DNA from: Clitopilus passeckerianus
Lineage: Eukaryota; Basidiomycota; Agaricomycetes; Agaricales; Entolomataceae
Assembly (NCBI GenBank): GCA_944990035.1
Contig: CALYLX010000096.1
Coordinates: forward strand, 62,001-126,000
Reading direction: 5' to 3'
Length of the DNA stretch: 64,000 bases
Within the stretch, counting starts at the first letter, position 1, and each line of letters starts with the position of its first letter. Shown here in pieces: positions 14,171-34,182 of the stretch. The translations under genes and the position numbers were made by a program. The notes under the pieces are model-generated. The model was not told the DNA's origin and did no database searches. It was given only the letters and a program-made list of their open reading frames with translations.

Positions 14171-15847
14171 TTAGAGGCACTGGAAGTAGTAGTCGTTGAG
14201 CTTAGTGCAAGTCGTGCCGCTGGTGCAGACAGTAGGGCCAGTCCAGCCGATACCACCGCTAGAAGAAAGGAAGTCAGTCATCATGTTACACCCGTAGATT
14301 GCGCAAAAACATACCATTGACCCCACTTAGTCTGAGTAGCACCGGAAGGAGGAGGAGAGGTGGTAGTGGGAGGAGTGGTAGTAGGGGGTGTGGTGGTGGG
14401 AGGAGTGGTGGTTCCGCTGTTACCGCCCGTGTAGGTGGATCCGATGTCACCGAAGCGAATGTTGGAGAAGGTGACTGAGGCGTTGGGGCTGTTGGCCTCG
14501 ACGTCCTTGGGAGCTCCGGAGGTGGTGGCGCAAGTACCACGGGCGATACCAGGCTTGGATGCGTCGGCGTCGGTGGGGTAGCTGGAGTCGAGCCAGAGCA
14601 TCTGGGCTGCGTGGTCGTCCCAGACGGACATGACGAGAACCATTCCGTTGGCGAAAGCCTTGCCCATGCGAGCCAAACCACCCTGCTTTTGGAATTGCTG
14701 GGTGTCGCCGAAGACGGTCTTCTGAGCATCGCAGAAGTCCTCGGTGATGGAGTCGTAGGCGCTCATTCCTGGAATGTTGACCTTGGAGTTCTGGATGACA
14801 ACACCGTTCTGAACGTAGAGGCGGCGGATCTCCTTGAGCGTACCGGTAGCAGTGCCGGAGTCAGTGATGAATTGAGTAACAACGGTGAACTTCTTGGTGG
14901 TGTCGACCTTCTTGCCAGGACCGTAGAAGGTCTTGTCGCCCATACGGAAGGAGTTGAAGTCGCAACCATCGGGATCGCAAACGGTGGCGTAGCGGTCGGT
15001 GGTACCGCAAGAAGCGCCAGTGCAGCGGGAGATGCCGTCGGCCTGGCAAGGATGAGGAGTAACAGCAGCAGAGATGGAGTTGGCCTCCCAGATATCCATC
15101 TCGTTACAGCAGGCACCCCAGTTACCAGTACCGGAGTTGGGGTCGCTGGCAGAACCACCCCAGCCGGCAACGTTAGCCTGTAAAGTTCTGGTCAGTAATT
15201 GAGCAATCAACTAAAGAAAGAGAGCATACCTCGCCGTTAATGAACTTGAGATCACGGGGGCATTGAGAGTCGCAGTAACCAGTACCGTACTTGGCACCAG
15301 CCTTGTTGGTGGGGTAGGTGGAGAGACCACCATCAGCAGCCATCTCAGAGAAGTAGAGAGCGCCGTTAAGACCGCAAGGAAGGTTGGAGACATCGACGTC
15401 GAAAGTGAACTCCTGGTTAAGGAGCTTGAAGATCTGGTACTTGGAGTCGGAGGCCATGAGGTAGGTACGGGAGCCGATGTTCGTGCCAGAACCCTTGGTA
15501 ACGAACTTGAGGGTCAGGGCGTTGCCGCTGGTGGTGATACCGTAAGTGCCAGAGTAATCAGCACCGTCCAAAGCGCAGTTGGCAGCGCAGGTCTTGCTGT
15601 CCGGGCACAGGCTGGTGTCCCAGGTGTTGCCGGTGTAGCAGTTGGTGTAACCGCTGGTGGTGTGGAGCCAACGCCAGTTAGCATCGAGAGTGATAGCACC
15701 GCTGGCCTGAGTAGTGCAACCACCGCTCTTGGTGCAAGTTTGCCAGGGCAACTTGGGGTGGGTCTCCGCGGTGGAGGTACCGATCTGCTGAGCAGAGACG
15801 GCTGCAGCGAGGAAAGAGAGGGCGAGAAGAGAAGCTTTTGGGAACAT
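14171..15847 (-). CDS. cbh1: secreted GH7 cellobiohydrolase with CBM1, 3 exons, 522 aa
   Basis: Cellobiohydrolase I that releases cellobiose processively from reducing ends of cellulose, outside the cell. Exons on the minus strand: 15230-15847, 14315-15177, 14171-14258. A signal peptide ([19 protein letters not shown]) is followed by mature [12 protein letters not shown]. The GH7 catalytic motif EMDIWEAN carries the nucleophile, the Asp and the acid/base Glu in the ExDxxE arrangement. Many paired Cys are present, and the late [15 protein letters not shown] region is CBHI-like rather than endoglucanase-like. A Thr/Pro-rich linker (about 14340-14420) leads to a C-terminal CBM1 with [14 protein letters not shown] and a terminal YYFQCL. 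The last intron splits the CBM1. It is convergent with the P450 and preceded by a TATA box. Confidence 0.96.
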
Positions 15848-18461
15848 CGTTGAGAAGACGAGGTTGAGAGTGTGTTGGAGTTTCTCGATCGACTCCTACA
15901 TTGCTTTTATACAGGCAAGTTGAACGGATAATATCCGGGCTGGCAGGGTCTCGCTTGCCATGGCGAAGTTAGGAGGTCTAGGGTCTCTGTACGGTCGTTG
16001 ACCATGGTACGACGATGTCAGGTCCAACAAGCGTTGACCTGGTGAACGGTGAGTTTAGGTCCGTCCAGGCGATCGACCAGTGCTGAATCCGAAGAGACGC
16101 CGCTGCACTTTTTTCCGAGCCAAAACGTCTGGATGTATGATCCTTATGGTAGATGGGTCAGACGTTCTCAGTGGTTATACTTCGGGACTTACCTCGAGGT
16201 ACGGTTATCATTTTGAAAAATAAGGAAGAAGCATCAAGAAGATATTGACTACGATGCAGAGCAGCCATCAAGAGTAATTGACTGGATGACACGGAGAAAC
16301 TCGACTGCAAAATCAGGTCTGCCAGTGAAAGCACCCGATACTCGCTGTCGGAAGTGGTGACGTCGAGCAGTCCTTGGATTCATTCACAAGCATTCATAGG
16401 ATTTCCCGTACGAGCAGGCTGGTGCACACCTTTCAAAAATAAATCCGCTGGTCCCCGTCGGCATGAGTATCCGTGAGTATTCGTGGAAGGCACAGTTTGC
16501 GAACGGCAGTTCAAGTTGTGGTTAAACGCAAGCATCAGCCTGAGTGCCGACTATCGGCAAGATCTAAAATTAGCAAAGAGTTCACGTGCTTGTCATCCAT
16601 CAATTGCAGGTGATCGCGTCGGGCATGCAATCTCTTTTTGGCCAGGAACCCCTTGGACAATTTGCACAAACAGCGATTCCGTTTTCTGAGGATGCTGCCC
16701 GTGAAATGGAATGTTCCTGGTGGCTTGTGTCCAGCAAGGGTCAGGCTATACAATGACGCAGGGATGTCTGTAATGCTCGGAAAAACCTCGTTCAGCGCTA
16801 CCAATTTAACTGTCCTCCCTTGCCCGTACGCATCTCTGGAACTGTATCTGTTCGAGCCGGGGTCTATGGATGTTTCCAAAGTTTGGGCGGCTCGGGGAAT
16901 CCTGGGGGCTGAGGAAGTCCATCCAAAAATATACCGATGCAAAGCCTGTAGCCTGACATCGTGAGCATCGCGGGAACAGACGTTGAAACCTAATCTCTGG
17001 CCATTCGTCGACTTTGCAAGGTCAAAAAGTATAATGATGCCTCATTTTACTTAAACGTCATTTAGCCAAGGGGGCCAAGGGCCAAGGCTGAGTCTCTTTG
17101 CATTAGGCGTACTTTAACATGTTTTCCAAGGTTTTCCAAGCATATACAGTCTGGGGGAGTTGTTACGCGGCCTTTGATGGTCCCCTTTCGACCGACGGAG
17201 GTTTTTGGGACCTTGCAGAAATCACTGACCCCGGCAATGGTCATGGCATGCCCCACATGCTATGCTCTTCTCCAGAGTGATTTTCTAGGATTCTCCGTGT
17301 GTTCAGCTCGCCTAGTGTTCATGGTCAGCTATCTCCGTGTCTGCCTACTGACGTCGGACTGCGCGCTTGTCGCCATCCCGCTTCGTTTTTGTGCTCTCAA
17401 ACGCCTCTCAATCGGCGCTCTGCCATACCTTCTGATCTTTAAGGTTTCGCCTACCATTAATACATCCACTTTTGACCTATTTGCGTTTAGAAGTGCGTTT
17501 TTTACCGTTATCTCTGGGGTTTTTCCGGAGCTTAGGGCCAGTGGACGCTGAGGGGACAAACGGGGTATTCATAGATAATCGTGATCAGGCTGACAGTCTG
17601 GGGTATGGGCACGCAATGCTCTATAGAGGTACGCACAATGACGATAATGTCGATTGGATAAGCAGGGCTGGATGGTATGCTCATTCGGTGGCGCTTTCGA
17701 GGCTCCTTACAACGCCTAATCTCGACGTCAACGCAAATCAGGGATCGTCGGGATGTCATAATTTAAATAGACTTGAAGAAGCCAGCCTCGAGATGTGGGA
17801 TCTCTATTCACTCCACTTATGCCTCGGGACTCAATTAAGAATAGCTGGGCGGGCCGTCGCAAAAGCTTGAGTACTTCAAAGGCGGAAAACTGCACAAGCT
17901 CCGGTGACTAGTTGTTGACAGGCAATATTCCGAAATCAGCGTACGTGATGATAGAAATCGACGCGAGTGATCGCATTCATCTAATCTTATCTCCTAACTC
18001 CGTATGGTACTACCTTGTACTTGGTTGATGATTGGGCGCTAACCGACTCCTTGTTGACCAAAAAGCTCATGTTGGGGTCTCTGGGGCTCGTGTCGACATG
18101 ACTTTCATCGCTTCTTAATAAGCTTTACGCAGCCAACTCCCACTTTCAAGGGCAGAATTTCGAAATAGAAAGGGAAAACCTGTGCTAGGACGGTGCTGCC
18201 TGGTGATTCGCCACTTTCAAGGAGCCGATGTTGCTGTCAATTCGGTTCGCCCTTGTACTTCACCAGCTTCTAGCAACACCTTGTACTTGATAGAATGATA
18301 GATGCTTCTCCAAGCAACCGTATCCTCAACCTCACGACATGCGGCGCCTGTTCAAGCCTCTCTCACGGCGAATAGCAACCTTGTATTTCAATGACTTATA
18401 GTCTCCATGACTGCCTTTGACTCGTCGCGCCTGAGAACCCCATTGTCCGCCTCTTTTGGCC
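15848..18461. other. 2.6-kb stretch without a recognisable gene
   Basis: Contains the cellulase promoter at its left end. Open frames of 108-132 codons on the plus strand (16638-16964, 17174-17551, 17472-17870) overlap each other, have no recognisable domain and are not joined by convincing splice sites. A short direct repeat (GTTTTCCAAG twice near 17119-17139) is present. No transposon termini or coding domains were recognised. Confidence 0.4.
15905..15911 (-). promoter_or_regulatory. TATA box of the cellobiohydrolase gene
   Basis: The minus strand reads TATAAAA about 58-64 bases upstream of the start codon at 15847, a sensible distance for a highly expressed fungal gene with a short leader. 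Confidence 0.6.
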
Positions 18462-19476
18462 ATGTCTCTTACTCCTCTCACTCTCGAAACTGGGCCTATC
18501 AGGCGGCGGCAGTGGAACAAGCGGCGGGATCCTTGGGAGGAAATCCGAAATGACGATGCCGCTACGTCTTCCATTCTCTTTGATCTAGTCAACTGGATAC
18601 TTATTTACATCACCGGAGAAGGGCCATCTGTTTTCACTAAATCTCCTATTGAGCACACTATTGAGAAGAAAAGTGCATGGAACGCTATTCCATACCAAAT
18701 GCGAAAGATAAAGCAACACGCTACTCAAGGCCGCCCCATCCCAGACGGGTAAGTCGCTACTTCAAGTTGTATTAGAGTTTGGGATACTGAAATCTCCGAG
18801 GCATGTACGCGTTCGGCTCTATAACTCCATCAAAGATCTCACAAGGACGGAGCCTTTGCTGACCGCGGTGGTCGCCCTTGAACCATGTGGAGCTCTTGAC
18901 ATTCGAAGGATCAAGTCTATGTGGGGACTCGAAAGCTGCTCGGTATGTCAAGCATACCATTACACCAACTTGCAAATGAGCTTAAATTACCGTAGATCGT
19001 AGATCCTTTCCGTTTCAGACTATTCGTCCCCGAAAACGACGACCTCATCGCCCCGCTTGCGGTTCATGATTTGCGACAACACTATAATGCTATCAACATC
19101 ATTGGTATGGGATCATCTTTCTCAAAGTAAGGCAGCCTAGACTAAACTATTCGAACCAGAACCCAATGTTTCACCGACAACAGCTCGGAGACGTGACCTG
19201 CGGCTGAATATCCTTCGGCCCATATCGATCTTTATATCACACCAGCAGGACCGCAGCATCACATGGCTTCGAAAGAACACGAAACTCGTGGACTGGGCAG
19301 AAGAGACCGAACGTGATCTTCAAGGTAGTCTTCGATTTGCAGCACGACGACTGGAAGGGTGGGCTGCGGAGAACCACCCCGATCTACTATGGCTCTGGGA
19401 GTCTGTCAACCTCAGTTGGTTGGTAACCCTGGGCGTCTTGTTCCTCCTATGGAAATTTGACATGACCTCTATGTGA
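18462..19476 (+). CDS. uncharacterised tail-anchored protein, 4 exons, 284 aa
   Basis: No family is recognised. Exons 18462-18748, 18801-18942, 18996-19104 and 19160-19476 join in frame through three 52-55 nt GT-AG introns, which is the main evidence that the gene is real. The start MSLTPLTLETGP is followed by a very basic stretch (RRRQWNKRR), then a hydrophobic segment (ILFDLVNWILIYITG). The C-terminus ends with one membrane helix (LSWLVTLGVLFLLWKF) and five further residues, the layout of a tail-anchored ER or mitochondrial membrane protein facing the cytosol. It lies 300 bases from, and converges on, the helical-bundle gene at 19780-21030. A role linked to that gene is only suggested by position. 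Confidence 0.75.
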
Positions 19477-19779
19477 ACCCATGCTTTACACACGTTTTGA
19501 TTTCTGGAGACTTAACTTGCCTCCTGACATATGTTTTACCACCCCTATGCCCTATGTTATCCTTTACACCCCACCATGCCACGTTTTTCTCGATCTGTTT
19601 TCTTGCTATCGAAAGTTTAAATACCCTGTACCATATTATTGATACCTTACTAGAACAGCGAACTTCAATTTGTACTTTTCTCAGACGAACGCTATATGCA
19701 TATTGTCGACCCTCCATATTTACAAAGATCGCGTGAAGACCGAAAGCATAGGGAGATAGCTTCGCAAGTCGTTCCCTAT

Positions 19780-21030
19780 TTACCACTGGCGATCTCTACC
19801 GACGGCGCTTGCATCCAGATCCACATCATCGTCGGCGTCTGCAAGCTGGTCAGAAAAGAGAGTTACAGGCACTGAATGCATACGTACTGATGTTTGAATT
19901 TGAGAAGCTATCGTTCACAGTAGCGCCCTGAACGCGTCTAGTGAATGCTTTCTCCGTCTCTATTTTTGGAAGGAGAATTTGAGACGATAGACGGCGAAGG
20001 AAGTGGGAGTAGACTTACTGAAGCTAGAATCCTTCGTAGTCATTGTGACCTTTCCCGTTCCCTCCGTATTCATCTTGACATTTCCCTTGGCCGCTATTCC
20101 TTGCGTTAAATTCTACCTCATGGCTGGATAAAGCCTCTCACACACCGATCGTAACACTCAGCACTTCTCTAATGACATTTCCATCATCCTGGTTTGCGGT
20201 GATGACTGTTGCCCAGTCCTTGAACTCCTTCATATCCTTCACCAGTGAGATTTGGAGGCTAGTCTTTGAAGTTCATCCGTTTAGGACACGAGACTTACGA
20301 GCGCAAGTGACTCAACTCACCTGGAGTAGCTGAACTGCGCCGTCCAGTTGTTCCCTGAGACGAGCAAGCTTCCCATGTGTATCGTCAACATTGATGAACC
20401 TTATGAAGGCATTCGAGTCGGCCGGAATGTCGTTCTTGATTGCCTCAACACGCCTACGTGTCGGTGAGAAGGCAGCTTATTCCCACTAGATCACACTTAC
20501 TTTGTGAACTGGTCTATGATGACAGGATCACGGACGTGTTCGGCATTACTGGCTACGATGTACAAAAATGCACGGATGTTGTCAGCTAGCTCTTCCGTCT
20601 CCTTGTTGTTGAGCTTCATCTCCTGTCAAGACAATCAGAGCTACTCAGACCATTTAGAACGCTATTCCATGCTTACTCCGTAGCGAACGGTGATGTCCAT
20701 CAACGTCTGGGCAACAAGCTTCACCCATGGGACCGGTGCGTTGCTTGCTATCGACATCACGAAGAGAAATGAGTTCTTGACTGTTGAAGATCCAGCAGTA
20801 GGAGGCGATTCCTCAGTCTCGCGAGTACTACCTGGCGTTTTCTCGTGGAGGGCCTTCCCATCATGACCAGCATGGGAGGGTAGCGTATCACTGCTAGAAC
20901 CGGATCTTCTCGCCTCAGGGGTTTCTTTGCCATGGGTACCGCCTCCTTTATCCGTCAGTCCTTCGTCAGAACGCGTTTTCTTCTCCTTTCTGGGCAAGCA
21001 AAAGACAAAGGTGAAAAACCTTCTGAACAT
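19780..21030 (-). CDS. MLKL/HeLo-like helical-bundle protein with beta-repeat tail, 312 aa
   Basis: Seven minus-strand exons: 20677-21030, 20501-20622, 20321-20453, 20146-20263, 20019-20099, 19888-19959, 19780-19838; all phases agree. Residues 1-80 are basic then Ser/Gly/Glu-rich and probably disordered. Residues about 85-230 are amphipathic helices (VPWVKLVAQTLMDITVRYG, then EELADNIRAFLYIVASNAE, then ARLREQLDGAVQLLQ) whose pattern resembles the MLKL N-terminal-like adaptor domain found at the front of many basidiomycete NLR-like proteins. This fold is related to HeLo-type membrane-perturbing domains. The last three exons encode a beta-prone tail (AAKGNVKMNTEGTG, VTMTTKDSSF, RRVQGATVNDSFSN, then an acidic ADDDVDLD). 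The tail is homologous, exon for exon, to the tails of the two small genes at 23652-25597. The helical-bundle call is by pattern and not proven. The role is inferred as signalling or regulated cell death. Confidence 0.75.
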
Positions 21031-22724
21031 GAGGGCAATATATGGAGGCTGAGATAGATGGTGACGGGGGTTATGTGCAGCATGGAGGCACCAGTGGGTG
21101 GCCGCTTTAAACGTAACCCTGAGTGTGAACGTTTTGAGCCCACACACGGAGTCTGCGTCACCCCCCGAGGGGGCACTATTGTGAAAGGGTTCTATGAAGC
21201 GCTTTGAGGGTGCGGGTCCCGTTTCCGATGGTTATGAATCACAGCCTGAAGGTGTCCATGGATGCCGCTTCGAGCCTGACTTGATGAATTTGCCCTTCGA
21301 CCATGCCTCGAATGCTTTCTGGCAAAGCTTCGCAGTTATTCATCAAGCTTGTCTTCACACGGCCTGCGCTCGTGCAGCTACCGTCAAGCGTCCAGTTGGT
21401 ACTATACAAGGTCACCATCACAATCATTCCCGCAAAATGACCCACAGTTTGAAATGGTGTCATCATTGGAGATACGCACCTACTTCTGGTATTACCAGAA
21501 AGTCCACTGTGTTCCGACGCATTGGTGCCCGAATAGTAAGGTCGAAGGGTTTTACGCGTACCAAAGACTAAGCCTTGCGGTGGCCTGTGGAAGGGGCAGC
21601 TTTCCATTCGGTATTACCTGAAGGCGTGGATGCGGATGCGCGCATGAGCCTAGGGGCCAGAAGATTAAGCGCGTAAGAAAGAAGTTAAGCTATACACGTC
21701 ATGATCCATGCATGACTACTAACTACTCCAAATTGTGGCTACAATAATTTAACAAGGAGCGCCCATTTTTAGTATATTAAACACCACTGCAACGTTTGGG
21801 TTGGCAAACTGACCTTAATGAACCTGGAGTCGTTTCAGGTTGCACTGCATGCCAGGCGAACGCACCCAACCCTCCAACTCCAAGTGATCTTTAGGGATCG
21901 CCGTGCTCCTTGATAATTGACAAGCGCTCACCCGGGCCACTCTCTTCAGAACATTGCTGGCAGTCTGTAAGGAAGATTTTAATCGAGCGGGAAAGAAAGG
22001 AGCTCAGGAGAGCAAACTAGCCTCTAAACGGCTCTTTCTTCCCTGGAGATAACGTGTTGAAATACCTCAAACTGAAGTCCCAGCCCTGCCAACCAATTTG
22101 CCCCTGCCACGGGTCGATCGATTAGTTTACCACTCAAATCCCTGTCATACCAGGGGCTGCCTTGAAAGGCATTCCGGTTAACCAAGCGAAAATACTCGTA
22201 ACACATCGAACGACCCCTTGACGATTTCTCTGGTCTACACAGATTTTGGTTGCAAATGATCTTCTCGATATTTATCCTCCAGAGTTGTTGGGTTGCGTTT
22301 AAGGAAACTACGTCCGAGTTTTCTTGTTCTAGACACCAGAGCTGTGGGTTTCAACGTCCTTGGGATTGGACGTTTCATCATTCAAGGTCAACAGGTAAAA
22401 TATCGGAAAGTCGGGCCGACGACTTAACGACTCCTTGGGGCCGTGGGCGTATCTCACGTAACAATGTCCCACACCAATGGCAAGAGAGCTAAAGAGGCAA
22501 AGCAACCTTTAGAACGCAAAGCTTGACTAGTTGACTCACCATCGACAATTAATTCGTATACAACTCCTGGACTGACTACGCGGGAGGAGAACTTGCCAAT
22601 ACATCGAGGAAATAAATTCAACTCATTCATTCGACTCTCATAGCCAATTATGTGAAGCTCCTGGTGGACAACCTGAGGATGGCACTACCGAGGAATCCAG
22701 GACCGATTCACCCTCCCTAACCTA

Positions 22725-23291
22725 ATGTGCTTGAAAATCTGCTACGAAGATCCTTGCATCTGTCCTGCTTCAACTTTGCCCATTAACGAATCTCGTGCTA
22801 TGGGGTAGGTTTGATCCCCCATTTCTACAATCGTATCTATGATTAGCGATCTCACTTCACGATCAAAGCGTCCAAAGAAACCCGCAGACATGGAGCAGAC
22901 CGCCCACTCACGCCGTCTGATATCCGCCGCCTTCCACAGTGCCTCTCAAGCGTGGACGTCCTGGAAAGTACCCTTCGATCTACCGTTTCCCATCTCCAGG
23001 AGATCTTCCAAGGAATTCCGCTACCAGAGGTAACACAGCTGCAATTCTTCTACCCTTCCTCCCCCGATTGACTCAAAGCCCTTGAATCACGATTGGCGGG
23101 AGAATTATCTCAGGTCGAAAAACCAGAACCTAGGAATCAAACGGATCTCGCTAATCTGCGGAAGTCGCACACAACTCAAGGATGCAGGGTACAAGACCGG
23201 CCCAGCAATGCGGACTATCGGAAGTGCAGAGATTGTCCTCCAAGAATCCAGCCGGGGCGTGGTCGGACCATGGAGAAATGGTGCATCTTGA
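22725..23291 (+). CDS. possible small spliced gene, unidentified
   Basis: A tentative model only. An ATG at 22725 opens a Cys-containing N-terminus; a GTAGGT donor near 22803 and a CAG acceptor just before the ACATGGAG near 22889 lead into a helical segment (DIRRLPQCLSSVDVLEST, then SHLQEIFQGIPLPE). This is followed by a GTAACA donor and a continuation to a stop near 23291, or near 23341 with another acceptor. The helical, coiled-coil-like stretch suggests coding origin, possibly an F-box N-terminal fragment. It could be a relic. The position between the two beta-tail loci makes it worth noting. Confidence 0.2.
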
Positions 23292-23569
23292 ACGGTTCCT
23301 TATCGTTGGTGCTTGATTTGATTGTAACCTTTTCCTTTTAATCTATCGTATTATCCACACCCTGTACACCTGTTGCCATCTTTCAACCCCCAGTATCGGC
23401 ACAAGGACCTACAAACTTCAAAGGCGGACAGCTTTATGTATACACCCGTGACCAACCAAGGCTTAAGCGGACTCGCACAGTAGTAGACGCCCAGATGGAT
23501 CGTGTATACATAAATGGCTATGCTTGTATTCTTGGCCTGTCAAGATTGGCGCCCGGGCTATACACCATC

Positions 23570-23651
23570 GATCTGTTATTAAAGCGGACCTTTCCCTTGT
23601 CTTCCTTTCTTCCTTTCCCTTCCTTTCCACCTATACTCTCCGCCTATCAAT
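23570..23651 (+). promoter_or_regulatory. duplicated core promoter of first beta-tail gene
   Basis: An AT-rich TTATTAAAG element at about 23576-23584 is followed by a pyrimidine-rich (CTTCCTTTC-type) leader up to the ATG at 23652. The same arrangement, with similar flanking words (ATCGAT, TTATTAAAG, GGACC), precedes the second copy, so the promoter was duplicated with the gene. Confidence 0.5.
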
Positions 23652-24502
23652 ATGACCAACCAACAAGAGGGCTTTGGTTCTGCTCAAGCTAGTCAGCAGC
23701 CTCAAGGTAACAAAGGACGACGTGAGAGCGCCTCCTACCTTCGATCCCTCCAAACTGAAAGCAGTGCCTTCTAGCCCACGTCCATATGTTTACAGAAGCC
23801 AGCAATGTCACTGTACAAGGCTCCCAGCTGATATCAGCTGGAAGGGACGTCAATTTCACCACCTACGGAGCTGATCTCGCTTCATCCCAAGATGAATATG
23901 GTATCCAAACTGCTGAATCGTAGAATCTTGACTTGATGAACTCATCTCAACCACAGGCAACCAAGAAGTCCGTTACAGCTCAACCACTGCGAGTACGACC
24001 CTTCCGCGAGACGATACTCCTCGGGTTCCGCCCAGGCCGCAGGTAGGATCAACGCCATCATGAAATTTCAAAGTTAAAGAGCGTTTTCAGGCTACCAGTC
24101 AGAACTCAAGCCGGGGTAACGTCACCATGAAACATGAGGGGGTCACCATTAGTGAGCACCGCATAAGATTCAGAGACTTCTCCTTGTTTAATCATAGTTG
24201 ATTGCAGAGGCAAGAGGAAATATGAAAACGAACATCATCTCCACCGGTGTCGTGAACACAACAACTAGCCACTCAACTTTCAGTCAGTCCTGTCTATGTC
24301 AAGAGTAGCCTCACCTAGTCTAACATCCTCTAAGCTACGGGGAAAACCTACTCACAGACCCTCCAAGGGAGAGAAGTTAATATGACACATCAGGGAGTAG
24401 ACATCGGTGCGCTTCGGTGCTAGATCCCAATTCAGTTCGTTTGCTGATTTGATTGTAGATGCGGATGAAGATGTAGTCTTCTCAGTCAATGCTGGATTCT
24501 AA
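23652..24502 (+). CDS. small beta-repeat tail protein, copy 1, 7 exons, 172 aa
   Basis: No named family. Exons: 23652-23706, 23775-23900, 23957-24042, 24091-24151, 24208-24282, 24335-24406, 24459-24502, in frame throughout. The N-terminus is Gln/Gly-rich (MTNQQEGFGSAQASQQPQ). Residues from about 30 on form beta-prone, Gly/Asn/Thr-rich repeats such as VTVQGSQLISAGRDVNFTT, GNVTMKHEGVTI and GREVNMTHQGVDI, reminiscent of the haemagglutinin/CdiA-type beta-solenoid repeat. It ends acidic (DADEDVVFSVNAGF). There is no signal peptide or membrane helix, so it is probably cytosolic. The last three exons (75, 72 and 44 nt) match those of the helical-bundle gene at 19780-21030. Likely a partner or decoy in the same assembly; the role is inferred. 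Confidence 0.75.
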
Positions 24503-24841
24503 CCGCTCGCTCTCCCTGAAAATAACACGGTTATCTATATTCCATGATCATGTCTGTATAATACATGTTCACACTGATTGCCTGTGTTTGGCGGTGCACT
24601 GATTGTAATTCAAAATCCGGGGGCTGTCCGAGTCTATATAAGCAATAACAAGTTCAAACTCTGGATGTCCTATCTTATTGTCCTCTGGGTGTGTACAAAT
24701 AGCTGTGTATGTAATCATGGCGTGGTAGGATGGGTACAGCAGTACACTATCGATTCCTTATTAAAGAGGACCCTGTTCAATTATCTTCCCTTCTCCCATA
24801 CCCACCATTCTTATTCCCATCTATCCTCTCGGCCTATCGAT
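24503..24841. promoter_or_regulatory. intergenic promoter of second beta-tail gene
   Basis: A 339-base spacer. The right half repeats the promoter words found before copy 1, including TTATTAAAG at about 24758-24766 and a pyrimidine-rich leader. No other feature seen. Confidence 0.5.
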
Positions 24842-25597
24842 ATGATCAACGACTGGCAACAGGAGGGCTTTGGTGCTATATTTGCCAGTCAGGAGCCTTG
24901 GGGTAACAACGGACGACGTGAGAGCGCCGTCTGCCTGTGATCCTTCAGAAATTCAATCAGCACCCTTTAGCCAATGTCCACACGTTTAGTGAAACCAGAA
25001 CTATCACAACCACCACCACCACTGTCGAACGCCCCGCCGTAATATCAGCTGGAGAGGACATGAAGATCATTATCGGAGGTAATCCCACTTCGTCCCGTAA
25101 TGAACAAGGTATTTAAAATGTTATTATAATCGTGGAATGTCGAGCTCAACTTGATACCAGGCAACGAAGAACCCTCAGAACCCCGAAAGAATAACGGCTT
25201 CTATTCCAATGGAGGTATTATGAGTGAGCATCACGCGAATTTAACGCGATTTTGATTTTTCCTTCCCAATTTCTCCTTGCTTAACCATAGTTGGTTGCAG
25301 AGGCGGGAGGAAATCTGATAATTACCATTATCTCCGACGGTGTTGTGAATGTATCGGCTATCGACTCGTCCTTCTGTCAGTCAAATTCGTGCATCGACGA
25401 GCTTGGCTTGATCTAACATTATCGTAAGCCGCGGGGAAAACCTATTCGCAAACTATCCGGGGGCAAGAGGTTAATATAACACAGGAGAGAGTAGAGATCG
25501 GTGCGCTTCCGTGCTTGATCCCAGCTAACTGAATTCGACTGCTGAATCATTTGCAGATGCGGAAGATGTTGTCCACTCCGTTGATACTGAAGCCTGA
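24842..25597 (+). CDS. small beta-repeat tail protein, copy 2, 6 exons, 149 aa
   Basis: Tandem paralog of the gene at 23652. Exons: 24842-24902, 24971-25108, 25161-25223, 25301-25375, 25429-25500, 25557-25597, all phases consistent. The first introns of the two copies are both 68 nt. It begins MINDWQQEGFGAIFASQEPW, has a poly-Thr stretch, the shared AVISAGEDMKIIIGG repeat unit, then KAGGNLIITIISDGVV and GKTYSQTIRGQEVN, and an acidic end. It lacks the short exon of copy 1 that encodes GNVTMKHEGVTI. The 75-nt and 72-nt tail exons have the same lengths in both copies. It converges on the DHTKD1-like gene, with 84 bases between stops. Function unknown; see the homologous tail on the helical-bundle protein. 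Confidence 0.75.
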
Positions 25598-25681
25598 CCG
25601 CTCGCTGGCCAACCGAAAGTGGCAGAATTGTTTCATGATTATCTCTATATACTACACGCACAAATTATGATTGTCCTATCT

Positions 25682-28600
25682 TCATAGTCCTGCGAATGCT
25701 CGTTCTATCACTGCCTTCTGCTGAGCGGCGTATAGCTTCCCTACACCCGGTGCCGGGAGTGCGCTCTCCTTCCTCCCAACATACCTCAGATTCTTCTGCA
25801 CTCCCAGCCGCTGAATCACCTCACTGAATCGGCTGGAAACGTGTGTCCAGGCACCCTGGTTCCTGGGTTCTTCTTGAAGCCAGACCAATTCAACGTCCTG
25901 ACCCCCACCGTACTTTTTCTTCAACAAAGCCTCAACTTCGTGAAAGGGGAAGGGGGACAGCTCCTCGATTCTAACAAAGGCAACCTCATCCTTCAGTCCG
26001 CGAGCCTCGCGTTCTTTGATGAGGTCGTAATATAATTTACCGGTGAGGAAGACGACACGTTTGACTTTTGAAGCATCTGAGACGGGATCGTCGAGTACGG
26101 ACTGGAATCGGGTGCCTTCAGAGAGCTCGGCAATCGAGGATCCGGCGGCCTGGAGAAGCTCCAATGAGCGCAGAACCATATGCGAGGAGTAACAACATAC
26201 CGACAGACGCAGAAGACCTTTAGGCCCGGCGACGATCAATGGCTTCCTAAAGTTCCGCTTAATCTGGCGCCTCAAAAGATGGAAATATTGAGCGGGTGTA
26301 GTTGGATAGACGATATGCATGTTGATGTTAGCAGGTTTGCCATCTGGAGGAGTATAAGGGTCGTTGGAAAGCTTTGAAGACGGCATTAGTTCATCTAGGG
26401 GCTGCGGTGAAAATTGTTTGGTAACAAACCTGGAGGAAACGCTCAATACGCGACGATGAATGTTCTGGGCCGGCACCGTCAAGACCATGAGGGAGAAGCA
26501 TGACCAGTCCACTCTGCCTAAGCCATTTGGCTGCAAACGACATCAGTAGTCGAATTGTACAAAGAGTATCGACTTGACGCACTTTCTGAAGAGGAGATAT
26601 AGGTGTCAATGATGATCTGAGCTCCGTTGAAGAAGTCTCCAAACTATCCAGCAAAGTCAGATCCCGACGTAAGAGGTAATTCAATGGAAACCAACCTGGG
26701 CTTCCCAGATAGGAAGAATGTTCGGACTCTCCCAGCTAACGCCGTATTCGAACTGGATACAATCAACTGTCATCAGCACCAAGCGTCAAATTTGACGAAA
26801 TAGCATTCGGACATACCCCAAGGACTGCGAATTCACTCAAGGAACTATTTGCCAGCTCAAGCTTTCCTTGAGCACCAAGCTCATCGTTCAGAGGAACGAC
26901 AACACCTTCAGTTTTCTGATTGACGAGCATAGCGTGGCGTTGGCTAAACGTTCCCCGTCCGACATCTTGTCCGGATATACGGACGTCGACGCCTTCCGTC
27001 ATGAGTGAGCCGAAGGCCAAAGCCTGTGTAATGAATGTCACTATCATCGCTTGTTGTGTAAGGTATTAAGGCTAACCTCCGCAGTCGCCCAATCAATGCC
27101 AGCACCCGACTCGATAGCCTTCAGACGATTCTTGACGTGACGGTGGAGCTTGTTGTGGATTTCCTACAAAACATTCAATCAGTCCTCAGCCGCGTCTTTG
27201 GTGGCCGTTCAACTCACGAATCCCCCCGGAACCTTGACGCTAGCTTTCCCAATAACTTTCAAGACTTCCTCATTGACACCAGTCTCAGGATTGAATACCG
27301 GTGCTTTAGAACCCTTGGAACCAGCTGGCCAGACCATTCCTTTCCATTGCCCTTGAAGCATCACATCTTCCGGTTGAGGGGGCATGTACGTCCCGCTAGT
27401 GACCTTGCCTAGCTCAGCTTCGAGGTGGGATTTGTATTCGGAACGGACGGCAGTAATATCTTCTTCGGTAAGGACTCCTTCCATCTGGAAGGATGATTAG
27501 CGTTGGATAGGGTCAGGAGGATGGTTCACAACTAACCTTCAGTTTCTCCTCATAGAGCTGAGGGACGGAGCGCCTCGCTGCGATATGTTCGTACATCAGA
27601 GGTTGAGTGATTCCCGGAAGATCGAGCTCGTTGTGACCCCTGCACCGAGTGTATTAGCGGAAGAAAGCCTTCAAGACTGGGGAAGCTAACGTACCATCGA
27701 CGATAAACCAGAAGATCGACAATAATATCCTGAGGAGGAACTATCAGCGACGAGTTGTGCTCATCCTAATGTCGAATTACCTTTCGGAAATATTTACGGT
27801 ATCGGAACGCAATATCCATAGCACGAACGACATCTGTAGATCAGGGGGTGAGTTGTCTGCTGCATGTAGCCCAAGTTGCAAATGAAAGGTACCTTCGGGA
27901 TGATCCCCATTGACATGCAAAACAGGAGCGTTAATCATCTTGCCAATATCCGAACAGTACAACGACGAGCGTGCCCCTGAAGCAGGGGTGGTGTATCCGA
28001 TACTATTAGAACGGTGAGGACTCCAGTCCGTGCGATGAACGATGTTTGAACGCAACGTACTTGTTGCTAGATAGTTTAAAGTCAGCATACATGAAAACCG
28101 TTGAAAGAGCGAGGAAAGACATACTCAACTACGACATGAACTGTTCCTCCGCTAGTGTAATGCGGCAAGTTACCTGCAGGAAAACATAACACAGTAAGCA
28201 CCTGAACAGGTGTAATAGCAGAAAATTAAAAACACGCACTTAATCCAAGACCTTCCATGACCACGCCTTGGCCACTGAAACTTGCGTCACCATGCAGCTG
28301 CACGCACATAACTCTGTCTCCGAGTTCACAGTTATTGTTGGGATCAGTCTGGAGCGTCTTGAGGAGGGACCATTGTTTGGCGCGGGTCTTGCCGAGGGCG
28401 ACGGGGTTGACTGCCTCAAGGTGCGAGGGGTTCGGTAGTAGCGAAACCTTCATAGGATCGGCTGAAGGATAGCGAAGAGTTGGTGAAGAGACTAGAAGCG
28501 ACTATGCATGAGTTTCATCATGGACTACAGTGCATATAATGACGTACCAAGGTGGCTGAGCACGTCACCCTCGGCGCCTAACTCTTCCGGAATCTCGAAA

Positions 28601-29683
28601 CCTCCTTTGATCTTGTTGAAGAGGGTTGCCGGAGAGTATTTGAGGAGGTCAGTCAAAAGGTTGAGACGTCCACGATGTGGCATTCCTGTGGGTCCTGGAG
28701 TTAGCCAACAATGACGTGAAGAAGGCGTTGTACCACACATACCCATGACAGTGTGTTGGATCCCAGCTAATGGGCAGTTATAAGCATACTCTAACTGATT
28801 GTGAAAGGCATCCTACCGTGCGCCGCGGACGAGAAAAGAGAATCAAGGGCTGGTAACATGGACTCTCCACCTTCAAGGCCATACTAGAGTCGTATTTTAG
28901 TTGCCCAACCAAATGATAGGATGTATGCGCAACGTACCCGCTTCAAATTGGGGAACTTCAGCTGCAGGAAGTTGTCAAGCACCTCGCTTCTTGCAAGAAG
29001 TCCATGTATACGCTTCTTCATCTCCTGATCCACAATGGTGATCGGTCTGTCTCCTGCGGAAGGTAGACTTTGGGACTCTAGCAGGTGAGAGAACCAGAGA
29101 CGTTCGGTCTTCGACGGGGAGTGCATATACTACATGGTTTGCGTCAGTGAGTCCACAAATTAAGGACGACGATTAACTAACCTCATATGCGATATTCCCG
29201 ACATATATGGCTCTCAGGTGCTGCTCGATTTCTTTGAGCGTCCACCTATCTTCGTCACCTTTGTTTCCCTTGGTGATAGGATGCCTCCAAAGGATTCCAT
29301 TGAGGTCGAACTTCTTGTCATCCTCGGTGAGGCCATAACGCTTGGGGTTCAAGGCAGCGACTTCTTCACGGTGAATGATGTCCAAAGGGTCAATACGCGC
29401 TGCTCGGTGCCCGTGGGTACGCATAGAGTCGACATATCGCAACAGAGGAGCATTAACATGGCGATTTTCAAGCTGTGCATCAGTGTCTGTCCAAAACGAA
29501 GGCTATCAGGCCTGCGAAACTGAAAGCCATTGACAAGAACTCACATTCTGGGAAGATATACTTCTTTCTCTTGCGGAATCCAAAGGACTCGTCGTGGTAG
29601 CCTCGTACAGATAGGCCATAGATGCCAGTGGTCCGTGCTCGGGCCAGCAAACCTGGCGCCCTCAAAGTCATTGCTTTCGGCAT
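25682..29683 (-). CDS. DHTKD1: 2-oxoadipate dehydrogenase E1 (DHTKD1-like), 21 exons, 963 aa
   Basis: Thiamine-diphosphate E1 of a 2-oxoacid dehydrogenase complex in the mitochondrial matrix, acting late in lysine/tryptophan breakdown. A basic N-terminus ([20 protein letters not shown]) looks like a presequence. DHTKD1-type motifs, rather than OGDH/KGD1 ones, run throughout: [103 protein letters not shown]. Minus-strand exons: 29545-29683, 29182-29486, 28938-29129, 28817-28883, 28743-28766, 28548-28685, 28240-28491, 28125-28173, 28061-28066, 27893-28002, 27781-27833, 27695-27729, 27537-27639, 27218-27484, 27077-27163, 26817-27023, 26696-26752, 26583-26643, 26430-26530, 26201-26371, 25682-26149. 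They sum to 2892 nt with all phases matching. The 6-nt exon supplies part of the cofactor-binding Asn-Asn pair. KGD1 proper is the alternative, less likely from the motifs. Confidence 0.93.
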
Positions 29684-29687
29684 CCTC

Positions 29688-29870
29688 CTAAGCTTGTATC
29701 GCCTTCAACGCCAATCTTGACGCGTTGGATAGCAACGACGACGGGGGGTTGATATGAGTGTTCGAAGTCAAGTCTTTGGCCTCAAGATAAGGTAGACCGG
29801 AGTGAGGTCCAGTACCCCAGTTCTTATAGACTGGACGCGTCGGGCGGAGCATGCAGCGGAGGAGGTACAT
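29688..29870 (-). other. 60-codon ORF ending 4 bases before the DHTKD1-like start
   Basis: The frame runs from an ATG at 29870 to a TAG at 29688-29690; the DHTKD1-like ATG begins at 29683. It starts MYLLRCMLRPTRPVYKNW and has a basic N-terminus. I do not recognise it. It could be an upstream ORF that limits translation, a second cistron on one mRNA (reported for Agaricomycetes), or chance. Confidence 0.35.
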
Positions 29871-31075
29871 TTAGCGCACTTGGCCCCGTCTAGCCGAGCC
29901 ATTCCCTTTTATGGAAGATCGTCACGACCCCATTTCCGTCTCAATTCCTCGTCCGTGCTACGTCGGGCAAAGACCCCTTCGCGAAACTACAGGTGCAGAC
30001 TCTGGAAACGCGGTGAGAAGAGAACAGAAACGCTGAGCAGACGAGGTACCTTGCATCTGCAAACCTCAACTGGTATTTTCGTCTCGCAGATCTCCATCTT
30101 GCTCTTAAAATCTGAGCAATACCACTGACTGCTCCAACCTCTCAATCAGTCAACACATCTGTAGTCGTTGTTGACAATACAGCTGGCCTCAAATGTGAGG
30201 AAGCCTTGCGATGCAAACTTTCAGCAAGCAGGAAGGCTCAACGAACAACCCTGAGAGCAAATTCCCAGAATAGCTCTACCATCAATGATAACGGACTTCC
30301 CCGGTCTTGAACTGTACAGCTCCAAATGGCTATCATCCCGCTCTCTGCAGCTCAGGCTGAACCCCACCATAGCAGGCTCAAAGCTGCGATGTTCGCCACG
30401 TACAGGAAAACCCTGAGAATCATCTTAGGACTTTCTTCTCTTGCGAACGGGCTAAGGTCTGAGCATTCTAATTCCCCTTGATCGGTTCTAGACGAGCCCA
30501 CTGCTAACGCAGTGTCACGACGGACCAGAAACTCGCCTTGATTTTCGTGTATGCCCTAAGATTCTGTGTTTACGCGCAGAGGAGGGCTTGTTGAATAGAG
30601 ACTTGAAATCGTCGCGGGAATTGGGCGTGCAGTCATGCACCTTCCTTTCGGAAATTGTGTATGATTGCTTTGTCCTTCAGTTCACTTCGCAGCTCGTTCA
30701 GTATCCAGCTGCGCCACGCAGTTGGATGACGAAACTCGATTCAGACTACTCTTTGTCTGCTGTGGCAATTTTTTCTTGCTATTTTGGCGTTCTCGCCATC
30801 GATAAAAGGACTTTGTAGGTCATGTACAGTTATCATTGACACCTTGTACTATGAACTACCAATCATTAACACGCCTCCGGTACCCTCGCTCAACTTTATA
30901 CGCGTTGTCACTTTGTATTGAACAACTTCAGAACGCAGTTTCTACGCTCCGCTGTTGTAGACCAGACCGAAACCACCGCCATCATGCTGAGCAAGTGACA
31001 GTGAAAGCGTGTGAAGATAGGACTGTCCGCTACCTTGAACTTCATCTACGTGTCTTTTGACGTTGCTAGATTGCC
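29871..31075. other. 1.2-kb intergenic region
   Basis: Separates the DHTKD1-like gene from the F-box-like triplet, which are divergently transcribed. Only short unconnected frames are present, none recognisable. It must contain both promoters. Confidence 0.4.
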
Positions 31076-32473
31076 ATGACTAGTCCTTGTCTCCCGCAAG
31101 AGGTAGATGATCTAATCATCGAAGCTCTCGCCTTCGACCACTCTGCGCTCTTAAAGCTCTGCCTCGTCTCGAAGACATGGTACCGACGCGCCCGTGCTAT
31201 CTCATCCGAAACCTTTCCTGTACGCATCTCAGCAGTCTCGCAGAAAGCGAAGCACAATACAGATATACTTTTGGAGCTCCTACAATCTCCCCACTCCGCA
31301 CTCGCGGAATGTATTCACGGAATACAAATTGAAGGGCTACTACATGGATTCCGTGACGATCCCTATTCCCCACCGAAAGTTCCGGATGATGAATACAACC
31401 TCCTCAGCGCATACATACCACGCATTTCGAAACATTTGACTTCTTTACGCAGCTTAACTCTGTCATCTTTGCGTTGGGACGAGATCAGTCCCCTCGCCAG
31501 GCAATCACTGTCCAATCTCTCGACCGTGCAGCACGTAGAGATGTATCAAATCGTAGCATCCGACTACAATGTCGTTTATGATGCGGTCTTCGGTACCATA
31601 CAGTCAATGGGTCTTAGAAGTCTCAGGGTTTTAGGCATTGATGTGCCAGATCCAGCGAGTCATGTGCCGCCACTCCCCACGAAGTACCTTGCGGTTCTCC
31701 AAAGGCTGCCTTCGCTGACCCTGGACATTGGAGATAGCATGGAATTTAAACACCCCCTACTACTCGAGACCATCCTCAGAGTCCCATCTCACCTTCACAC
31801 ACTCGATATCCGGATACACAAGGGAGACCATCTGGAATTGGTGAACCAGGTCCTTAAGCACGTCGCTGGAGCGCTAAGGGTCTTGAAATTAGGGGGATAC
31901 CATCTAGCTTACGTCTATGATGGACTTCTAACCCCAGAGTACGGGGCATTACCTCTTTCCGTTTCCCATAACACCAGCCTCCAGCGACTTCATCTCCCCG
32001 GTTTTACATTGGAGCCTTTGATTGTGGATCAGCCAAGCCATTTTCCTGCCTATCTCTCTCAACTCATCGATTCGATACAGTCCCCCTACTTCATAGAGCT
32101 TGTCTTCCATATGTTCGCATTTAAAGACACCTTAGAAACGTTCCAGGATCTTAGCTCTCTTGCCAAGGGAGTAGCCAGACCTTTCCTTGGCCTAGATAGG
32201 ATGCTAGCCGATCGGAAGGCAAGCATCCCCTCTTTCCGAATTTCATTCACGAAATCTTCTGTTTCAAGGCGTTTTGATTCCGAACCTGACGCCATGAGGA
32301 CGATTGCCATACATGTGGCTCATTGGTTCCCAAATCTTTATGCGAACGGCCAATTTGCGATATCGATAGACGGGCAAGCCATTTGGTTACCGCAACCGCC
32401 GGCATTGAATGCGGGTGAGCCGATTCGGGATGATTTACGTGGGGCTAAGGTCCCGGCGGATCGGATCGATTAG
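31076..32473 (+). CDS. F-box-like protein, tandem copy 1 of 3, 465 aa
   Basis: Single-exon gene. A compact F-box-like motif sits at the very N-terminus (CLPQEVDDLIIEALAFD, then LCLVSKTWYRRAR), followed by the subfamily signature LLELLQSPHSALAECI and about 380 residues of irregular leucine-rich segments (LRSLTLSSLRWDEISP; ALRVLKLGGYHL). The C-terminal NGQFAISIDGQ motif is shared with the next two genes. It differs from the 1-6 kb and 58-64 kb F-box families, in which the F-box lies after an N-terminal extension. Probable SCF-type ubiquitin ligase adaptor; target unknown. Confidence 0.85.
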   Translation: MTSPCLPQEVDDLIIEALAFDHSALLKLCLVSKTWYRRARAISSETFPVRISAVSQKAKHNTDILLELLQSPHSALAECIHGIQIEGLLHGFRDDPYSPPKVPDDEYNLLSAYIPRISKHLTSLRSLTLSSLRWDEISPLARQSLSNLSTVQHVEMYQIVASDYNVVYDAVFGTIQSMGLRSLRVLGIDVPDPASHVPPLPTKYLAVLQRLPSLTLDIGDSMEFKHPLLLETILRVPSHLHTLDIRIHKGDHLELVNQVLKHVAGALRVLKLGGYHLAYVYDGLLTPEYGALPLSVSHNTSLQRLHLPGFTLEPLIVDQPSHFPAYLSQLIDSIQSPYFIELVFHMFAFKDTLETFQDLSSLAKGVARPFLGLDRMLADRKASIPSFRISFTKSSVSRRFDSEPDAMRTIAIHVAHWFPNLYANGQFAISIDGQAIWLPQPPALNAGEPIRDDLRGAKVPADRID

Positions 32474-32784
32474 ACGACAGGAAGAACTTGCAAGTTGGTT
32501 GAAGGATTCATTTCGAATAAGGCAGAGTTTGGTATAGAAAAGAGTTTTTTCCTGTTTCTGTGTACTCTTCGTACTAGCGTAGATCATAGATATGACGTTG
32601 TCTCGAGATGTAACTCCTTGTATGATGGCTCGGAGTCAGACTCGGGCACGGCCATAAAACGGTACTCAGGGGAGGGCGTAAGCTGACGCGGTGCCTCATG
32701 TACCCAAAATGAATGCAGGGTCGAAATAACGCTTTCTAGGACCCTCATATACACCTCCCGCCAAATTTTTCAAAAAAGAGCAGA
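32474..32784. other. intergenic spacer in the F-box-like tandem
   Basis: About 310 bases with no gene. The 3' flank and the promoter of the next copy are implied; nothing distinctive was seen. Confidence 0.4.
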
Positions 32785-34182
32785 ATGGCGGACCCCATGA
32801 TACCTCAGGAGATTCAAGAACTGATAGTGGATGCTCTCTACTTCGATAGGCCAGCACTTGCGACTTTCAGTCTCGTATCGAGGACATGGCACCGACGCGC
32901 CCGCAACCTATTCTTCGACAGATTCACTGCCTGTATGTCGGTGGCTAGTCGAGAAGGGGAACGCAACACGCGGCAATTTGTACAGCTTGTACAATCCCCT
33001 CACTCGACTCTTGCAGGATTTATCCGCAGTCTTCGAATAGAAGGCCCCGAACGAACGAGGATCTATCTAGTAGTTCGAGATCGCAGAGACCTCCCTAAGA
33101 TGTACGACATCCTTGCAGACTCTCTGTCAGCTATCGCTCACTTGCTGACATGCGTGCGCAAGTTGACACTATCAAGCCTCAGCTGGAACCAACTCTCGCC
33201 GGAAGCTAGATCATCCATATCGTCCTTCTCAACCGTACGGGATTTGCGGTGGGACCAAGTCACGGTGCCTAATCAAGCCGTCGGTCACCACGTCTTCTTC
33301 AGCGGTGTTCCGTCTACCAGGCTTGAAAGCCTCAGCGTCATTGGGGTCAAAACACGCGATTCAATCAATACATTCCACCCTCTTCCCGCACAATACTATG
33401 ATGCGTTTTCCAGGCTCTCATCTTTGGAGGTTGACTTAGGTCCATCCCTCGGCCAATTAGTCGTGCACCCCCTCTTCGCGGCCCTAACGGAGGTCCCACT
33501 GGCATGCCGACTTCATACCCTTCACATCCGTTTATTCTCCGAAAAACAATTTGACGCCATCAATCGCGTTCTCGGCCATCTAGCTGGCCAGTTGCGAGTG
33601 CTAGGCTTGGGGGGCCATCATTTGCAACAAGTCTTCCGGGGTTTTGAAGCCCCGTCATATACAGCTCTACCAATATATGTCGGCGGCCTTACGAAGCTGC
33701 AAGAACTTCACATCTCGGGTTTCGAGATCGACTTACAGGGAACCTGGAGAACCATGCCTGTCCTTCCCCCTTACTTTCTTTCCCTTTTCGACTCGATACA
33801 GTCCAGACAATTTTCCGAGGTCATTTTCCATGTCTACGTCGATCAAGACGCCATGGAGGATAATGGTGACATTTTGGGGTTTTCTAGGGCCCTCTCAAAC
33901 CTGTTCCCAACTCTAACAGCCACGATAATGGCACGAAAATTGGCCATCGCCACCTTCCGACTTTCTTTCGAATCGCCCGCCTTTTTTCGCTGGAGCGGGG
34001 AGCAAAGGCGCTACACTGCAGGCCGAGTAGCATGTGCGTTCTCAGATCTATACGTCAATGGGCAGCTTGCCATTTCGATTGATGGTGAATCGATGGATTT
34101 GCCAGAACCACCCCAGTGCACGGTACACAAGGACCAAACGGTGCCACTACAAGTATCCCACTCCTATGAAGAGGGGTGGTAG
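32785..34182 (+). CDS. F-box-like protein, tandem copy 2 of 3, 465 aa
   Basis: Exactly the same length as copy 1 and collinear with it. N-terminal motif MIPQEIQELIVDALYFD and FSLVSRTWHRRARNLFF, then FVQLVQSPHSTLAGFIRSL, leucine-rich segments, GQLRVLGLGGHHLQQVF (the counterpart of the copy 1 GGYHL segment) and the C-terminal NGQLAISIDGE. Intact and intronless. Clear divergence in the middle section suggests relaxed or diversifying selection on the putative substrate-binding region; this is inference from reading the two proteins. Confidence 0.85.
   Translation: MADPMIPQEIQELIVDALYFDRPALATFSLVSRTWHRRARNLFFDRFTACMSVASREGERNTRQFVQLVQSPHSTLAGFIRSLRIEGPERTRIYLVVRDRRDLPKMYDILADSLSAIAHLLTCVRKLTLSSLSWNQLSPEARSSISSFSTVRDLRWDQVTVPNQAVGHHVFFSGVPSTRLESLSVIGVKTRDSINTFHPLPAQYYDAFSRLSSLEVDLGPSLGQLVVHPLFAALTEVPLACRLHTLHIRLFSEKQFDAINRVLGHLAGQLRVLGLGGHHLQQVFRGFEAPSYTALPIYVGGLTKLQELHISGFEIDLQGTWRTMPVLPPYFLSLFDSIQSRQFSEVIFHVYVDQDAMEDNGDILGFSRALSNLFPTLTATIMARKLAIATFRLSFESPAFFRWSGEQRRYTAGRVACAFSDLYVNGQLAISIDGESMDLPEPPQCTVHKDQTVPLQVSHSYEEGW

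Follow-up and report, generated by a model that had tools for sequence, protein, structure and literature searches.

In the HET-S/NWD2-type amyloid signalling of ascomycetes, an executor protein with a C-terminal double pseudo-repeat is paired with a NOD-like receptor (NLR) that carries a single related motif (PMC4518210, PMC12881547). HET-s-type repeats bear opposite charges at equivalent positions, which is read as an indication that the repeats stack in register. The receptor motif is less charged than the executor repeats and, among the groups of HET-s-related amyloid motifs (HRAM), is closer to the second repeat in some and shows the opposite in HRAM2, while an NLR gene stands beside the executor gene in 98 of 155 cases, a common arrangement that is not universal (PMC4518210). 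HeLo proteins carrying the HET-s motif twice have already been described in Agaricomycetes, and in basidiomycetes executor-side motifs are seemingly less frequent than the plentiful NLR-side motifs (PMC9815663), which raises the question of how the receptors of these fungi reach an executor. Here we describe a locus of Clitopilus passeckerianus that is a compact candidate for this link. It lies in a stretch of 64,000 nucleotides (C96:62001-126000, the window) and comprises gene A, which probably encodes a double-repeat executor, and two small genes, B and C, whose products combine receptor-like and executor-like motifs; a third small gene, D, is found on the second haplotype of the locus (contig C156), and an unlinked paralogue of A, termed A2, lies on contig C123 with an allele on C26. 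We propose that A is a HET-S-like executor and that B, C and D are three-motif partners of it that lack the executor domain and act as relays or brakes, a reading to which we give slightly better than even chances. The genes are laid out as follows, in window positions unless a contig is named.

21030-19780, minus strand: gene A, seven exons, 312 codons, with an open frame and GT-AG splice sites
21030-20677, 20622-20501, 20453-20321 and 20263-20146, minus strand: exons 1-4 of A (354, 122, 133 and 118 nt), the end of exon 4 being the first half of pseudo-repeat R1
20146..20787, minus strand: putative helical (HeLo/MLKL-like) domain of A, residues about 82-242
20099-20019, minus strand: exon 5 of A (81 nt), second half of R1 and linker
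19959-19888, minus strand: exon 6 of A (72 nt), first half of pseudo-repeat R2
19838-19780, minus strand: exon 7 of A (59 nt with stop), acidic second half of R2 and C-terminus
23652-24502, plus strand: gene B, seven exons, 172 aa, no helical domain
23652-23706, 23775-23900, 23957-24042 and 24091-24151, plus strand: exons 1-4 of B (55, 126, 86 and 61 nt)
24208-24282, 24335-24406 and 24459-24502, plus strand: exons 5-7 of B (75, 72 and 44 nt with stop)
23804..23860, plus strand: NLR-type motif (R0-like) in exon 2 of B, from the NLR-motif profile
24115..24233, plus strand: R1 of B, running from the end of exon 4 across the intron to the start of exon 5
24367..24485, plus strand: R2 of B, running from the end of exon 6 across the intron to the start of exon 7
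24842-25597, plus strand: gene C, six exons, 149 aa, first half of R1 degenerate
24842-24902, 24971-25108 and 25161-25223, plus strand: exons 1-3 of C (61, 138 and 63 nt)
25301-25375, 25429-25500 and 25557-25597, plus strand: exons 4-6 of C (75, 72 and 41 nt with stop)
25042..25083, plus strand: NLR-type motif (R0-like) in exon 2 of C, from the NLR-motif profile
About C156:445772-446607: gene D, the third small gene, on the second haplotype only, between the B and C alleles (B' and C')

The first-pass annotation of this stretch had claimed that A and the two small proteins share a tail encoded by their last three exons, and had named profile similarity of the tails as a check. The claim held. 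The exon lengths (81/72/59 nt in A, 75/72/44 in B and 75/72/41 in C) were confirmed from the DNA, each of the three genes has only phase-1 introns before and within these exons, and the executor tails (three sequences) aligned by hhalign with those of the small proteins (four sequences) over 54 columns at a probability of 97.9 and an E-value of 3.7e-13. When ungapped scores for single exons were set against 5,000 shuffles, with the first two residues of A exon 5 omitted, the scores of A or A2 against B, C and D were reached by 0-1 shuffles in all six comparisons for exon 5 and by 0-5 in all six for exon 6. Support from exon 7 is weak (p 0.009 for A-B, 0.036 for A2-B and 0.20-0.39 in the remaining four of six). 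Judged by these alignments, A and the small proteins have homologous tails.

Read from its sequence, this tail is made of two pseudo-repeats, R1 and R2, each cut by a phase-1 intron. The pattern is plainest in B, where R1 (NVTMKHEGVTI / KARGNMKT) matches R2 (EVNMTHQGVDI / DADEDVVF) with the intron at the same residue; in this junction register the two score 30, a value reached by none of 5,000 shuffles, and the next best of the 17 registers scores 2. The intron sits at an equivalent place in R1 and R2 of A2, B, C and D, and in A the R1 intron comes two codons sooner with respect to the R1 motif. By alignment score the junction register is the best of 17 when A, A2, B, C and D are pooled. Paired residues were counted over the same five proteins, with the two residues at the R1 junction of A omitted and a one-residue gap placed in R2 of C and D. 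By these counts the junction register is the best of 15: it has 24 hydrophobic pairs, none of the 14 others having more than 10, and 10 pairs of opposite charge, where the others reach at most 8. In all six proteins or alleles the second half of R1 has a net charge of +1 to +4 and that of R2 one of -2 to -5, the A allele of the second haplotype (A') being included in this charge table only. Two C-terminal pseudo-repeats of about 21 aa, as in HRAM executors, are thus found here, in the pooled registers and in B singly. R2 gave nothing significant against PDB sequence profiles (best E 0.28).

A motif related to these repeats may also exist on the receptor side. We scored 87 matches out of 257 NACHT candidates in the genome and read the N-termini of 40 NLR genes, in 23 of which a motif like VVSSITNNRINAGGDSIIYNVAGN was recognised by eye about 260-290 nt before the NACHT match. 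A profile was built from 16 of these 23 genes, and an alignment from 13, the genes omitted being near-identical copies or alleles, and no small-protein sequence was included in the profile. When run on all 2,047 six-frame open reading frames (ORFs) of at least 20 aa in the window, this profile placed exon 2 of B first (13.2 bits) and exon 2 of C second (7.5 bits), followed by an ORF at 4.1 bits, and placed exon 6 of A fifth at 3.1 bits, although unspliced. On spliced sequences it gave 10.4 bits for B (0 of 400 shuffles), 6.6 for D and 5.7 for C (1 of 400 each), and 5.4 for the exon 6/7 segment that forms R2 of A (0 of 400). Comparison by hhalign pointed the same way for exon 2 (P 0.0004, probability 34.7), followed by R2, in register (P 0.0055, probability 6.6), and R1, out of register (P 0.026, probability 1.9); the NLR motifs are nearer to R2 than to R1. 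Asp, Glu and Lys make up 9.3% of the NLR motifs and 23.1% of R1 and R2, in windows picked by hand. We are fairly confident from these scores that exon 2 of the small proteins is NLR-like, and R2 is possibly related to the same motif.

Convergence of short Gly/Asn-rich beta-arch sequences could produce the same likeness, as the motif is short, the comparison was picked after inspection, the hhalign probability is low and the reverse profile described below is unspecific. We hold this explanation to be unlikely in view of the first two ranks among the window ORFs, obtained with a profile free of small-protein sequence, and of the P-value of the hhalign comparison. A second alternative takes R1-R2 as a stable, non-amyloid beta-solenoid used for binding, of which the small proteins would be free-standing versions. 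The alternating hydrophobic pattern and the like position of the introns in the repeats suit such a fold, and the best matches of the NLR motif among PDB sequence profiles, where nothing was significant, were phage tailspikes (E 0.063). It is quite unlikely, however, given that each executor has just two short rungs, that R1 and R2 show the charge complementarity of stacking repeats and that the small proteins resemble the N-termini of NLRs.

Gene A encodes, in order, a short N-terminal amphipathic stretch, a polar linker, a helical domain and the double-repeat tail. The first-pass annotation took the helical-bundle protein for a HeLo/MLKL-type effector. In our judgement this type is likely, and A is a probable membrane-attacking cell-death protein, the match of residues ~81-242 to Pfam MLKL_N (E 0.014, 15.3 bits; E 0.074 for the whole protein) lying under the family cut-off of 27 bits. 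A gave nothing significant against PDB sequence profiles (best E 0.095), and the weak matches to the unrelated Pfam families Nanovirus_C8 (A) and Peptidase_A4 (A2) were set aside as chance. The N-termini of A and A2, MFRRFFTFVFCLPRKEKK and MPRFFRIFSRLSKSR, are basic amphipathic stretches followed by a polar linker, with helical moments of 0.59 and 0.51 over the first 18 residues; in HeLo-type domains the N-terminal helix serves membrane targeting (PMC10197012). Seven motif-bearing NLRs (L043, L044, L046, L049, L059, L075 and L081) resemble A and A2 to some extent in that a short basic start leads into a linker rich in Ser and Pro (MRKVFSRFKRKKDAKSPDSISSTP, MPKLSALFRKKKPKDSQASGSSTPP); their helical moments are 0.21 to 0.53, and a membrane-seeking head may be common to receptor and executor.

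The paralogue A2 was found on searching the genome (64.8 Mb, 160 contigs) with A. Its exons measure 258, 122, 133, 118, 75, 72 and 59 nt, equal to those of A from exon 2 onward except for 75 vs 81, and the two proteins are 40% identical; one of its two alleles was used in the alignments. At its start the A2 tail resembles the small-protein tails (KAGGN; TTGQAFSQRIQG vs TTGKTYSQTLQG), and a pattern scan of the surrounding 9.9 kb revealed no second tail. Exon-by-exon searches of the genome, for which A, A2, D and the tail and exon 2 of B served as queries, retrieved no genes beyond A/A', A2/A2', B/B', C/C' and D, a search of this kind being able to miss diverged copies, as the B-tail query did not retrieve the A tail; a single extra match at E 0.33 was disregarded. 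A and B had no match at E <=10 in a protein database of 5.8 billion sequences, which is presumably poor in fungal gene models.

The second haplotype provides another view of the gene models. The locus is collinear with C156 over 15161-33791 at 90-94% identity, for which reason the C156 copy was rejected as a distant duplication. A' (C156:440581-441836) has the same exons as A and a stop two codons earlier, and B' keeps the exons of B with a GC donor after exon 3, which supports the splice models of both genes. C', as mapped, has lost its frame in exons 1 and 2 and its exon 3 acceptor; because this allele is broken, C is decaying or dispensable. D is 68-69% identical to B and C in aligned DNA, has a GC donor at intron 1 and has exons 3 and 4 read as one, so that the C156 haplotype carries three small genes, one of them broken, and the window haplotype two. 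Neither B nor C matched a Pfam family. The possibility that B and C are parts of one longer gene was rejected, as both have a start and a stop of their own and the sequences upstream of the two are similar.

Between haplotypes A and B are under purifying selection. The ratio of nonsynonymous to synonymous rates (dN/dS) is 0.26 for A (20.0 nonsynonymous and 21.0 synonymous changes; linker 0.24, helical part 0.15, tail 0.55) and 0.26 for B (14.5 and 15.5; N part 0.25, R1-R2 0.28). The tail of A (19780-20099) changes faster between alleles than its helical part, and the C-termini of the alleles differ. Were B, C and D disrupted, functionless copies of an NLR gene or of a gene like A, the broken C allele and the GC donors in D intron 1 and in B' after exon 3 would be expected, but B keeps its frame, its exons and its low dN/dS, and the pairing of an NLR-like exon 2 with an executor-like R1-R2 cannot come from simple truncation of either kind of gene. 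Selection on B therefore argues against plain relics for B, not for C, and for the three genes together this explanation is improbable.

As a special case of our proposal, the small proteins could be brakes or decoys, soluble competitors that would co-assemble with the executor tail or the NLR motifs and, having no helical domain, cap or dilute the death-inducing polymer and so set a threshold. Their tail is of the same R1-R2 type without an executor domain, B is under purifying selection, and the small-gene number differs between haplotypes with one allele broken, as for dosage-type modifiers. A brake alone does not explain the NLR-type motif of exon 2, and we regard this version as somewhat unlikely. 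The first-pass annotation had cast the small proteins as regulators, seeds or decoys, and we have added relay to these roles because exon 2 carries an NLR-type motif. In this second version B, C and D would be relay adaptors in a three-layer, prion-like cascade, in which NLRs template exon 2, the fold spreads along that polypeptide to R1-R2, and R1-R2 converts the tails of A and A2; we offer it tentatively, as rather unlikely in this specific form.

We propose the following model for the locus, of which both versions are variants. A, with a putative membrane-seeking N-terminal helix and a putative HeLo/MLKL-type helical bundle, would be kept inactive until R1 and R2 of its tail meet a template and fold as stacked beta rungs. 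Two kinds of template may be present, the NLRs with one related motif just before NACHT, and B, C and D, in which the NLR-type motif of exon 2 lies ahead of an R1-R2 tail that lacks an executor domain. Oligomerisation of the NLRs would allow their motifs to nucleate a beta-solenoid, which the small proteins would join via exon 2 or R1-R2, either passing the fold to the executor tail or competing it away from that tail. The earlier description of the locus as a templated-assembly module is partly supported by the shared tail, the in-register pseudo-repeats of opposite charge and the NLR-type motif present in the genome; we infer the rest, namely the beta-solenoid or amyloid fold, pore formation and membrane activity, binding, who templates whom and the direction of the small proteins' action, relay or brake.

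Several observations weigh against this model. HRAM repeats have an invariant glycine at position 19 and hydrophobic residues at 5, 8, 10, 16 and 18, a pattern that the repeats here do not reproduce: the column after the conserved Ala reads D, D, V, D, D, gap, gap in R2 and R, R, G, G, K, K, G in R1, and one column further a G is present in 7 of 7 R1 and not in R2 (exon 2 of B, read by eye, does fit the HRAM pattern with A, V, V, I, A, then G). The loop between the repeats is about 28 aa in B by hand count, as compared to 6-18 aa in HRAM executors. Taken singly, R1 and R2 do not align significantly in A, C or D, where 1,064, 1,893 and 374 of 5,000 shuffles reach the score, and are borderline in A2 (67 of 5,000), and R1 and R2 match each other weakly when compared as profiles (P 0.029, probability 1.7). 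On the receptor side, none of the 87 scored NACHT matches lies in the window or, in HRAM style, adjoins the executor gene, the nearest of them on the contig being at C96 383881, about 296 kb away. The comparisons with the NLR motif were chosen after the likeness had been noticed by eye, all three hhalign probabilities given above are low, and the NLR-motif profile gave 0.1 bits on A2 (13 of 400 shuffles), with its R2 in register at -2.9. Nor did a reverse profile of R1, R2 and exon 2 cleanly retrieve the NLR motifs from 1,704 ORFs upstream of NACHT: its top match, at 7.3 bits, was a stretch close before NACHT in L060 that is perhaps another motif, followed by four chance-looking near-identical matches and then by four near-identical true motif sites at 3.9 bits, and a profile of exon 2 only was likewise unspecific. 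Only the direction from NLR motif to exon 2 is strong, and the outcome of the reverse profile speaks against any strong claim that the tail and the NLR motif form one family. For the executor, to the MLKL_N score below cut-off are added the lack of any MLKL match for A2 in the Pfam search and the better E-values of the two chance-looking families named above. Finally, the A2 alleles show a dN/dS of 0.45 outside the tail, and two nonsynonymous and no synonymous changes within it.

Among described systems, the locus is close to HET-S/NWD2, with which it shares a probable double-repeat executor, a single and possibly related motif in NLRs, the less charged receptor motif and the opposite charges of R1 and R2. 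It differs from that system in the missing R2 glycine, the longer linker, the want of an adjacent NLR among those scored, the weakly recognised HeLo domain and the extra small proteins with a receptor-type motif and an executor-type tail. The HeLo proteins with double HET-s motifs in Agaricomycetes are of the same class of fungi, have the combination of executor domain and double repeat that is probable here, and go with NLRs bearing single motifs; theirs are HET-s-type motifs, whereas the repeats here lack the HET-s glycine, and the consulted part of that account mentions no executor-less partners (PMC9815663). The basidiomycete MLKL-like proteins (BaMLKL) and the motif group of NLR05/08/22/29/44 recall the locus in an MLKL-type domain, putative here, that stands outside the NLR, in dozens of NLRs per strain whose NACHT domain is preceded by a short motif, and in a hydrophobic pattern with a G[DN] pair after it, a likeness drawn from the description and not from the published profiles; unlike here, motif-like fragments were reported for no more than a few among 500 stand-alone proteins (PMC9815663). 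HET-s, the inactive allele of HET-S, is likewise a tail-bearing protein unable to kill (PMC12881547, PMC10197012), but it retains a mutated HeLo domain, while B, C and D have no HeLo domain and carry an NLR-type motif in its place. The PP/RHIM pairs (HELLP-PNT1) and the three-gene Chaetomium cluster also spread one motif across several proteins of a cluster (PMC12881547, PMC5485727); their named partners are executors, a lipase or NLRs, and the likeness is one of description, not of motif comparison.

In the fungal literature searched, mostly open papers and these in part, we found no description of executor-less proteins that combine an NLR-type motif with an executor double repeat. An executor with a double repeat is no novelty in this class of fungi; the new element of the locus is the pairing of the two kinds of motif in its small partners. 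If the relay version is true, this would be amyloid signalling with an adaptor layer not found described in the fungal papers searched, in which fast-changing small proteins could connect a large number of NLRs of diverged motifs to a small set of executors; if the brake version is true, it would be amyloid signalling with a built-in buffer.

Of the 40 NLR genes read, 17 lack the main motif, and in seven of these (L052, L053, L057, L063, L064, L072 and L082) a different N-terminal motif, such as MFKNAAGVAIYNSNLTNAHTINN or MPMFENARNISIYNATFIEE, was seen before NACHT; it may represent a second motif class of this genome. Motif-bearing NACHT genes occur several per contig on C59, C130, C138 and C139, and 9 of the 19 motif matches in one search were on C59.

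Three neighbours of the locus were also noted, two of them ordinary genes.

14284-15210, minus strand: GH7 cellulase (cellobiohydrolase)
18435-19476, plus strand: ORFs of a gene of unknown family adjoining A
25685-26542, minus strand: end of a 2-oxoglutarate dehydrogenase gene

Two ORFs of the gene adjoining A had no match in Pfam, and its last ORF ends in a hydrophobic, membrane-like segment. The GH7 cellobiohydrolase, an F-box gene, many short introns and the many NACHT genes of the genome would fit a wood- or litter-decaying basidiomycete.

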